Assembly: GCA_017516745.1 (NCBI GenBank) | Contig: JAFXBF010000015.1 | Span: 53,580 to 117,579, forward strand | Length of the DNA: 64,000 bases | Source: Clostridia bacterium | GTDB taxonomy: Bacteria > Bacillota > Clostridia > Oscillospirales > Acutalibacteraceae | Direction of reading: 5' to 3' | In this document: piece after piece, positions 57,610 through 59,728 of the stretch | How positions within the stretch are numbered: the stretch's first letter is position 1 | Layout: every line of letters starts with the position of its first letter | Translations under genes and position numbers: made by a program | The notes under the pieces: generated by a model | Told to the model about the DNA's origin: nothing | The model's input: only the letters and a program-made list of their open reading frames with translations | The model's database searches: none

Positions 57610-58041
57610 TTACAGCTTGCAGATATCTGCGTTTGTGATAAGGTGGTAGCCTGCGCCTTCAAGTGCGGCTTCAGCGGCGCCGTTATCCTCAACACGAAGA
57701 ACAACGTAGGCGTGCTTTTCCGTTCTTGCCATAAACGCATAGAGGTATTCAACGTCTATACCTGCCTTGTCTAGCACGTCAAGTGCGCCTGTGAGTGCGC
57801 CGGGCTTATCGCCGATTTTAACGCCGACAACGTCAATCGCCTTGATAAGGTAGCTGTTTTCTTCAAGGATTTTTGTTGCGGCTGTTTCATTATCTACAAT
57901 AATACGAAGCAGTCCGAAATCCTCGGTTTCTGCAATGGAAAGGGCACGGATATTCACGTCGTTCTTTGCAAGAACATCCGTAAGAGATGCCATAGCACCT
58001 TTTTTGTTCTGTACGTAAACCGTTAACTGCTTGATTGCCAT
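57610..58041 (-). CDS. Tandem ACT-domain protein (second copy)
   Basis: 143 residues: KQLTVYVQNKKGAMASLTDV then a second ACT fold VGVKIGDKPGALTGALDVL. Similar end to end to the ACT protein at 4641-5069. It follows the second CoA ligase by 14 bases and ends the T-box-controlled transcript. It probably binds an aromatic amino acid, likely as a sensor for the ligase; this is inferred from pairing and the Phe T-box. Confidence 0.88.
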   Translation of the reverse strand: MAIKQLTVYVQNKKGAMASLTDVLAKNDVNIRALSIAETEDFGLLRIIVDNETAATKILEENSYLIKAIDVVGVKIGDKPGALTGALDVLDKAGIDVEYLYAFMARTEKHAYVVLRVEDNGAAEAALEGAGYHLITNADICKL

Positions 58042-58055
58042 TGTTATTTCTCCTC

Positions 58056-59363
58056 TCAGATTAATTTACGCTTGTCGATAACACGCACTGCCTTGCCTTC
58101 GCTTCTTGCGATGCTCTTGGGAGCAACAAGGTGAACGCTGGGATTGATGCCGAGCATCGTCTTCATTGCGTTTGCAAGCGATTTTTCCATAGCGATAATG
58201 TCGCTGAGCTTATCGGTGAACTTTTCGGCAGTCATTTCAACGTTGACTTCAAAAGTATCGTTATTGTTCACACGGTCAACAATAATCTGGTAGTTGGGCT
58301 CATAGCCTTCGTTAAGAAGAACTGTTTCAATCTGGCTCGGGAATACGTTGACACCGCGGATAATGAGCATATCGTCCGTTCTTCCCATGGGCTTTGCCAT
58401 TTTGACAAGCGTTCTGCCGCAGGAACACTTCTTGCGTGAAAGAACACAGATATCGCGTGTGCGGTAACGAAGAAGCGGGAAGGCTTCCTTGTCAAGAGAG
58501 GTGAAAACAAGCTCGCCCTTGCTGCCCTCGGGAAGAACCTCACCCGTATCGGGGTCTATGATTTCCGCATAGAAATGGTCCTCATTAATGTGCATACCCG
58601 TCTGCTCACTGCACTCAAACGCAACGCCGGGGCCCGTTGTTTCGGTAAGGCCGTAAATATCGTAAGCCTTGATGCCGAGGGTGTTTTCAATACCTCTGCG
58701 CATTTCCTCTGTCCAGGGCTCTGCGCCGAATATACCCGCCTTAAGCGGAATATCCTCGGGCTTGTAGCCCTGCTCCTTGAGCGTTTCGCCTATGTATGCC
58801 GCATAGGACGGAGTACAGCAGAGAATAGTTGCGCTCAGATCCGTCATAAACTGAATCTGACGCTCCGTGTTACCGGATGACATCGGAAGTGTAAGACAGC
58901 CGACCTTGTGTGAGCCGCCGTTGAGGCCGGGGCCGCCCGTGAAAAGGCCGTAGCCGTATGCAACCTGACAGACATCCTTATTTGAGCCGCCTGCAGCTAC
59001 AATTGCACGTGCACAGCAGTCCTCCCACAAATCAATATCGTTTTGTGTATAGAAAGCAACTACACGGCGGCCTGTTGTGCCCGAGGTTGACTGAATACGG
59101 ACACAGTCTTCAAGCGGCTTTGCAAGAAGGCCGTAGGGATAGGCGTCACGCAGGTCTGCCTTTGAGATAAAAGGCAGCTTGTGCAAATCCTCAATCCCCC
59201 TGATATCCTCGGGCTTTACGCCCTTTTCATCCATAAGGTTGCGGTAATACTCTACGTTCTCATAAACGTGCTTTACCTGCTTGACGAGTTTTTCGGACTG
59301 AAGCTTTCTCATTTCTTCAGCAGACATTGTTTCGATTTCTTTCTGATAGTAGTTCTGTGCCAT
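58056..59363 (-). CDS. Phenylacetate-CoA ligase family protein (second copy)
   Basis: 435 residues from the ATG at 59363 (GGGTGG upstream; a GTG at 59372 would add three residues). Motifs: QSTSGTTGRRVVAFYTQ (P-loop), YGLTETTGPGVAFEC, RYRTRDICVLSRKKCSCGRT and RSEGKAVRVID near the end. The copy at 984-2288 has the same motifs but a different N-terminal and C-terminal detail. Upstream lies a T-box with a Phe (TTC) specifier, so expression should rise when uncharged tRNA-Phe accumulates. Substrate presumably phenylacetate. Confidence 0.9.
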   Translation of the reverse strand: MAQNYYQKEIETMSAEEMRKLQSEKLVKQVKHVYENVEYYRNLMDEKGVKPEDIRGIEDLHKLPFISKADLRDAYPYGLLAKPLEDCVRIQSTSGTTGRRVVAFYTQNDIDLWEDCCARAIVAAGGSNKDVCQVAYGYGLFTGGPGLNGGSHKVGCLTLPMSSGNTERQIQFMTDLSATILCCTPSYAAYIGETLKEQGYKPEDIPLKAGIFGAEPWTEEMRRGIENTLGIKAYDIYGLTETTGPGVAFECSEQTGMHINEDHFYAEIIDPDTGEVLPEGSKGELVFTSLDKEAFPLLRYRTRDICVLSRKKCSCGRTLVKMAKPMGRTDDMLIIRGVNVFPSQIETVLLNEGYEPNYQIIVDRVNNNDTFEVNVEMTAEKFTDKLSDIIAMEKSLANAMKTMLGINPSVHLVAPKSIARSEGKAVRVIDKRKLI

Positions 59364-59411
59364 TCTGACCACCCTTTCTTAATTTGAGGCTTCGGAAATG
59401 TGAAAGGAAAA

Positions 59412-59452
59412 CAAAAAAGCCCTCCGCATTCCGATTAAGAATACAGAGGACG
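59412..59452 (-). terminator. Terminator arm of the T-box
   Basis: CCTCTGTATTC...GAATGCGGAGG stem (two G-U pairs) followed by GCTTTTTTG on the minus strand. Confidence 0.85.
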
Positions 59453-59693
59453 AGAATTTTAAATCCCGTGGTACCACCTCAGTTTACCGCCATCTCACGG
59501 TAGCGGCCTTATCAGGTACTGACATACCTTAGTTCTGTAACGGGAACTCCCGTTGCATCCTACTAAAGATTACTCTTATTCAGTGCACTGCTAACAGAAT
59601 GAATTCGTGAAGGACGCCCTCTTTGCCTCGCACCAACCGGCAACTCTCTCCAGATTCTTTCCGACCTACTGGTTTCTGCTCATCGCATTTATT
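59413..59693 (-). promoter_or_regulatory. T-box leader with Phe (TTC) specifier
   Basis: About 280 non-coding bases on the minus strand have the T-box layout. The Stem I specifier loop has AGTA on its 5' side (59667-59670) and GAATTCA on its 3' side, giving TTC (59601-59603) as the specifier codon, closed by CAGAA/TTCTG. The apical region has GGTTGGTGCGAGG. The T-box sequence GAGGTGGTACCACGGG lies at 59465-59480 (antiterminator), then a terminator hairpin with TTTTTT. The riboswitch binds uncharged tRNA-Phe and lets transcription go on. Confidence 0.9.
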
Positions 59694-59699
59694 GGATTG

Positions 59700-59728
59700 A
59701 ATATAGCACTATGAAATTCATTTGTCAA
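59700..59728 (-). promoter_or_regulatory. Promoter of the T-box leader
   Basis: Minus strand TTGACA (59723-59728), 17-base spacer, TATATT (59700-59705). Confidence 0.85.

Follow-up and report, generated by a model that had tools for sequence, protein, structure and literature searches.

T-box leaders turn genes on when a charged tRNA is in short supply, and the known phenylalanine T-boxes, such as those of the pheST type (Rfam family RF00230), control tRNA synthetases, shikimate-pathway genes or amino acid transporters. In the aryl acid route of methanogens, the genetics of which was reportedly done in M. maripaludis, an arylacetate-CoA ligase is paired with the indolepyruvate ferredoxin oxidoreductase IorAB working in reverse. 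According to the discussion in PMC13285125, the AMP-forming ligase beside the Bacteroides indolepyruvate oxidoreductase (IOR) is an arylacetate-CoA ligase, for which a biosynthetic role is argued, as in methanogens. The formation of phenylalanine from phenylacetate by rumen anaerobes is mentioned in a passage of PMC7356843 that cites Allison (1965). In this study, we analysed a stretch of 64,000 nucleotides (the window) from contig JAFXBF010000015.1 of a Clostridia bacterium, in which one transcription unit on the minus strand, from 59728 to 57610, comprises a promoter, a T-box leader, a terminator, a PaaK-like CoA ligase gene and a gene for a pair of ACT domains. We consider it quite probable that a phenylalanine-specific T-box controls this arylacetate-CoA ligase and ACT operon and that, together with IorAB and an aminotransferase, the operon rebuilds phenylalanine from phenylacetate.

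The leader matches RF00230 over the whole length of the model with 106.0 bits, compared with a gathering score of 93 (E 2.2e-22), and is the sole T-box match in the window. The same model yields eight matches in the whole genome at E <=0.001, and four of these exceed the gathering score. A local covariance model of 31 leaders gives 284.9 bits for the window leader, which is itself one of the 31 members. Besides the model score, the locus has a specifier that matches the anticodon, a UGGN bulge, a purine 3′ of the specifier and an antiterminator and terminator that are predicted to exclude each other. In the predicted folds, the CCUC strand at 59449-59446 pairs in either the antiterminator or the terminator, as a transcriptional T-box requires; the terminator hairpin (59451-59419) has a folding energy of -17.0 kcal/mol (z -5.4) and is followed by a T run, and the antiterminator fold has -11.3 kcal/mol (z -1.6). 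The scanned region of 2.5 kb contains five promoter-like sites, compared with 3.4 expected from the mean of shuffles; therefore, the position of the putative promoter counts for more than its match. A preliminary description of this DNA, made from the letters alone, had called the leader a complete T-box with TTC (Phe) as the specifier and had proposed a covariance search over 59413-59693 as well as a comparison with relatives. The search places a T-box at 59692-59443 with the specifier on UUC, and the full-length match, together with the promoter and the terminator, agrees with a complete T-box.

The assignment of the specifier to phenylalanine has several sources. In the window, the specifier loop has GAA-UUC-A on its 3′ side, directly followed by the closing helix, and the pheST T-box of the same genome, a control for which the amino acid is known, reads GAAG-UUC-A, with UUC at the same place. 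UUC is likewise present in all 30 leaders that precede the ligase in relatives, in the contexts GAAUUCA (18), GAAUUCC (11) and GUAUUCA (1). Because the pheST T-box and these 30 leaders agree, the reading of UUC is independent of any single alignment. Moreover, the tRNA-Phe of the genome, identified with the Rfam tRNA family and ARAGORN, has the anticodon GAA, the 3′ end GGCACCA and the discriminator A, so that UUC and the UGGU of the bulge both suit it. Further T-boxes of the genome also carry codons that suit the genes behind them, namely UGG before a TrpB-like gene, UGC before cysE/cysS-like genes and ACC before a thrS-like gene; these specifiers were read by hand, and the controlled genes, including pheST, were named by eye from their translations. 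The TTC specifier of the preliminary description is therefore borne out by the alignment, the pheST control, the relatives and the tRNA.

Table 1. Features of the T-box operon and of the IorAB cluster, in window coordinates.
Feature	Position	Strand	Basis
Sigma-70-like promoter, TTGACA-17-TATATT, TG before the second hexamer	59700-59728	-	11/12 matches
T-box leader (stem I, II, III, antiterminator)	59443-59692	-	Rfam RF00230, full length
Specifier UUC (Phe), GAA before, A after	59601-59603	-	RF00230 alignment and relatives' leaders
UGGU of the T-box bulge, able to pair with the tRNA ACCA end	59473-59476	-	sequence
Intrinsic terminator; shares CCUC, its 5′ strand, with the antiterminator helix (3′ strand there)	59413-59451	-	predicted folds
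PaaK-like AMP-forming ligase, probably for arylacetates, 435 aa	58056-59363	-	AMP-binding_C_2, TIGR02155
ACT domain pair protein, 143 aa	57610-58041	-	PF19571 ACT_8
Sodium:solute symporter, C-terminal part, gene begins before the window	1-978	+	PF00474, 70.4 bits (cut-off 22.8)
Second PaaK-like ligase, PaaK1	984-2288	+	TIGR02155, 518.9 bits, also below cut-off
IorA, indolepyruvate ferredoxin oxidoreductase alpha	2312-4045	+	TIGR03336, 734.5 bits (above cut-off 650.9)
IorB, beta subunit	4049-4624	+	NF005325, 282 bits (cut-off 230)
ACT-like gene, paralogue of 57610-58041	4641-5069	+	matches ACT genes of relatives

The ligase gene begins with an ATG after AAAGGGTGG, and the first in-frame GTG, at 59372, would add three codons. 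In the Protein Data Bank (PDB), the ligase matches 2y4o, 2y27 and 4r1l with E between 3e-123 and 1.2e-120; the third best, 4r1l, is a Bacteroides enzyme. The ACT pair protein matches PF19571 with 72.8 bits, well beyond the gathering score of 23.5. According to the proposed mechanism, uncharged tRNA-Phe would pair with the UUC specifier and with the UGGU of the antiterminator, the bound tRNA would block the terminator, and the ligase would be made. Judging from its family, the ligase would convert phenylacetate, ATP and CoA into phenylacetyl-CoA, which IorAB, encoded elsewhere in the genome, would carboxylate to phenylpyruvate with reduced ferredoxin, also by analogy with its family. An aminotransferase would then form phenylalanine, and the ACT protein would probably sense phenylalanine and exert feedback on the ligase. 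We infer the direction of flux, from phenylacetate to phenylalanine, from the sign of the T-box response, the co-occurrence and linkage of IorA, the tyrosine T-box found before a ligase and IorAB in relatives, and a parallel for branched-chain amino acids. On these four lines, the phenylalanine salvage by the ligase and reversed IorAB that the preliminary description had suggested is well supported by inference. That description had also considered the genes not to be for phenylalanine synthesis or charging, and the part on synthesis has to be put differently, because the genes probably serve synthesis by a salvage route. Its naming of an arylacetate CoA ligase and an ACT protein stands for the latter and, at the level of a PaaK-like enzyme, for the former.

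Relatives were collected by a search with the ligase, of which the best 80 of 588 loci were kept; the assemblies are named as Clostridia and related Bacillota, and by their titles more than half come from the ruminant gut. A leader model was built from the window and the loci of 30 relatives and was then searched over the 80 loci. It finds the leader immediately before the ligase in 30 of the 80, the same 30 that were used in the model, and before none of the other ligases. The alignment of the 31 leaders, which is also the source of the structure, has 55 pairs; both partners have changes in 30 of these, and 96.5% of the cells are paired, compared with 38-51% in slid controls. In 73 of the 80 loci, an ACT gene lies within 1.8 kb downstream of the ligase. 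A tree was computed for 82 ligases. It places the ligase of L055 and 26 T-box ligases, among them that of the window, in a single group with support of 99/97; the T-box label requires four changes on this tree, for which the bootstrap has not settled. A T-box search over 295 genomes of the order had 30 loci as its best matches, one per genome. These comprise a UUC leader before the ligase in 18 (own included), a UAC (Tyr) leader before a sodium symporter in 10, a UAC leader before a different, AMP-forming CoA ligase (L159) and a UUC leader before an ABC transporter (L163); L151, L163 and L164 were read by eye. Because some genomes are common to both sets, the order-wide counts should not be added to those of the 80 relatives.

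A related ligase was found by protein search in 65 of 100 genomes of the window's own family. The idea that the T-box ligase is foreign to this family, to which 25 other members without a comparable leader had pointed, was dropped, since L192, L193 and L195 also carry it. The T-box motifs of L051 and L054 fall within IorB and for that reason were not accepted. The T-box before the L163 transporter is of the same kind as that of the window, and the transporter is of the TrpXYZ type by eye. Further T-box matches occur in the relatives' flanks, at places not directly upstream of the ligase (L025 6889-7154, L033 259-522, L034 9220-9478, L046 9416-9673 and L090 9870-10144).

An arylacetate-CoA ligase-like gene and IorAB occur together in this genome, both in the window, but IorAB is far from the T-box unit. 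It belongs to a plus-strand cluster with a symporter, PaaK1 and an ACT-like gene (Table 1). PaaK1 is 48% identical to the T-box ligase, the symporter is 42% identical to one found under a tyrosine T-box in L027, and the ACT-like gene has no NCBIfam match at 1e-10. An inverted repeat, TTGTTTTAGCGCTTGAAAGCGTTAAAACAAG, lies just upstream of this cluster (L019), without a T run directly after it. Among the relatives, IorA was found in 29 of the 30 T-box-ligase genomes at E <=1e-100, with 28 above the curated cut-off, and the single genome without a match is an assembly of 1.4 Mb. IorA or IorB is located at the ligase locus in 34 of the 80 relatives. IorAB immediately precedes the T-box ligase in four of the 30 and also in L195, a locus of the window's family; L044, L049, L057 and L195 have the order IorA-IorB-T-box-ligase-ACT, and in L050 only IorB precedes the T-box ligase and ACT genes before the contig ends. 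In gene order, these linked loci look intermediate: an IorAB-ligase-ACT cluster would stand on one side of them and the window's separate T-box unit on the other. In L094, from an assembly named Ruminococcus flavefaciens, IorAB, the ligase and ACT are near one another and the T-box is absent.

In 25 of the T-box-ligase genomes, IorA is encoded away from the T-box ligase, and their 26 IorA loci reveal a second amino acid. Upstream of IorA, a PaaK1-type ligase is found in 10 loci, another AMP-forming ligase in six and neither in 10, some of which are near contig ends. In three of the six (L167, L176 and L179), a tyrosine T-box, GAA-UAC-A, that scores above the Rfam gathering score precedes the ligase, which is followed by IorA and IorB; one search for such T-boxes covered all 26 loci and another covered 12 of them. 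The L176 ligase matches general acyl-CoA ligase models only, all below their cut-offs. The leader of L177, cut at its 5′ end (73 bits) and without a readable specifier, was left out of these counts. In L027 and L037, a tyrosine T-box precedes a sodium symporter-like gene, and the phenylalanine T-box unit follows directly downstream; the L027 protein scores 176.9 bits against TIGR00813, just under the cut-off of 184. This symporter-like family with UAC T-boxes (L027 2664-4543, L037 2685-4568, L149, L150, L155-L158, L160-L162 and L164) may import arylacetates or tyrosine. Because of the tyrosine loci and the phenylalanine unit, an oxidoreductase, a transporter and two types of ligase can be placed under T-boxes for phenylalanine or tyrosine, the two amino acids that would be the products of the route.

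Contig C7 (L014) of the same genome encodes two proteins with helix-turn-helix (HTH), cupin and AMP-ligase parts, each behind a T-box, and the specifiers were read as AUC (Ile) and GUA (Val). The nearest NCBI model for both proteins is MbcS (432.7 and 440.1 bits, far below the cut-off of 850). Downstream are genes for VorB and a branched-chain aminotransferase, with 558.3 and 497.4 bits against cut-offs of 399 and 307, respectively, and for another two oxidoreductase subunits; a divergent T-box read as CUC (Leu) precedes a LeuA-like gene. All three specifiers were read by hand as the three bases that lie one base before the stem, a weaker reading than that for phenylalanine, and the score of the Val leader does not reach the Rfam gathering score. 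Contig C7 follows the same logic as the phenylalanine unit, probably for isobutyrate and 2-methylbutyrate. The three T-boxes lie within L014 2353-16406, and a fusion of 842 aa, with a xylose-isomerase-like TIM barrel and an AMP-forming ligase, is encoded downstream of the LeuA-like gene (2353-4878, minus strand). We lean slightly towards a wider view, in which a set of tRNA-sensing switches, each with its own codon, would scavenge fermentation acids into Phe, Tyr, Ile and Val, with IOR and VOR working reductively. The phenylalanine arm would consist of the PaaK-like ligase and ACT protein, that for tyrosine of a symporter and, in relatives, a ligase with IorAB, and those for Ile and Val of the HTH-cupin-ligase proteins; the ferredoxin-dependent IOR and VOR would be shared. 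A shortage of one amino acid would thus be met by importing the matching acid excreted by neighbours.

Several observations weigh against salvage of phenylalanine as the role of the operon. The leader is missing in 49 of the 79 testable relatives (the contig of L055 starts inside the ligase gene and is cut off before any leader), and in the window's family it precedes the ligase in only 4 of the 20 best loci, own included. In 11 of the 30 leaders, the base after the specifier is C instead of the usual purine (A in the other 19 and in the window), which is a small departure, and the stem I region folded alone is no stabler than shuffles (z 0.06). At the IorAB cluster, the RF00230 scan of this genome found no T-box. 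The ligase scores 532.7 bits against the PaaK equivalog TIGR02155, below the curated cut-off of 646.3, and is for this reason named PaaK-like and not PaaK. Furthermore, the genome has a prephenate dehydratase, so the salvage route is not obligatory and would supplement the usual phenylalanine pathway; the RF00230 search found no T-box on the contig of that gene. IorAB is reversible, and the same enzymes might serve amino acid breakdown, in which IorAB would oxidise phenylpyruvate and phenylacetyl-CoA or phenylacetate would be handled by the ligase, running backwards or as a detoxifying enzyme. A passage of PMC13285125 cites the B. thetaiotaomicron IOR for the conversion of phenylalanine into phenylacetate, which also speaks against salvage. 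However, T-box induction comes with a shortage of the amino acid and not with an excess, which is the wrong sign for catabolism, and an argument put forward in PMC13285125 is that the AMP-forming family favours acyl-CoA synthesis. In addition, a search for the PaaA/PaaC family, which belongs to the aerobic phenylacetate pathway, finds nothing in this genome but gives matches in 4 of 14 control genomes. We therefore regard a role of the ligase in breakdown as quite improbable.

In another explanation, phenylacetyl-CoA is synthesised but does not lead to phenylalanine; it would serve, for example, aryl fatty acids, acylated products or a signal, and the T-box would be a tie to amino acid stress only. 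The T-box operon of this genome contains no carboxylase, and for 26 of the 30 T-box ligases the flanks retrieved, some of them short, contain no IorAB match. Nevertheless, nearly all of these genomes have IorA, which adjoins the T-box ligase in the linked loci described above, the leader is specific for phenylalanine in every case, and the tyrosine twin clusters with IorAB; we give this explanation little credence. It is also unlikely that the main substrate is a different acid, for example phenylpropionate, hydroxyphenylacetate or indoleacetate, to which phenylalanine would be linked indirectly. The score below the PaaK cut-off and the location of the paralogue PaaK1, not the T-box ligase, with IorAB would fit such a substrate, and according to a passage of PMC13285125, a C. 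difficile ligase accepts phenylacetate, hydroxyphenylacetate and indoleacetate. This range of substrates is set against the phenylalanine specifier in all 30 leaders before this ligase and against the separate tyrosine T-boxes that precede other genes of the system.

If salvage of phenylalanine is the correct reading, the operon would supply genes and control for a conversion that has been on record for rumen anaerobes since 1965, and it would bear on phenylacetate levels in the gut, where such bacteria would be consumers. Because T-box codons name the amino acid served, they would indicate the direction of the reversible IOR and VOR, which gene annotation cannot. Among the matches listed in a literature search, none connects a phenylacetate-CoA ligase or IorAB with a bacterial T-box in its title or the opening of its abstract, and the lone listed paper with both 't-box riboswitch' and 'phenylacetate' concerns, by its listed text, synthetic inhibitors. 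The terms 'phenylacetate' and 'CoA ligase' are absent from the main texts of the T-box survey PMC2494555, PMC3766115, the TBDB paper and a T-box review; PMC3766115 places its T-box regulons in supplementary tables. Provisionally, we consider the switch and the enzymes to be known and the connection between them to be new.

The leader resembles the pheST-type phenylalanine T-boxes, of which this genome has an example, in its architecture, its specifier and the position of the specifier, but the gene that it controls is an acid CoA ligase. The ligase is of the same sequence family as the PaaK of the aerobic pathway (2y4o and 2y27), from which the locus differs in the lack of a PaaA/PaaC match, the score below the cut-off and the control by amino acid starvation. 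The Bacteroides IOR and its adjacent AMP-forming arylacetate-CoA ligase represent the same gene pair, and the discussion in PMC13285125 mentions no T-box for it. The rumen anaerobes of Allison (1965) perform the same net conversion, which is known as physiology. The methanogen route uses the same two enzyme types; compared with it, the present system occurs in an anaerobe of the gut Clostridia, keeps the T-box ligase and IorAB in separate units of the genome, and adds an ACT partner and tRNA-dependent control.

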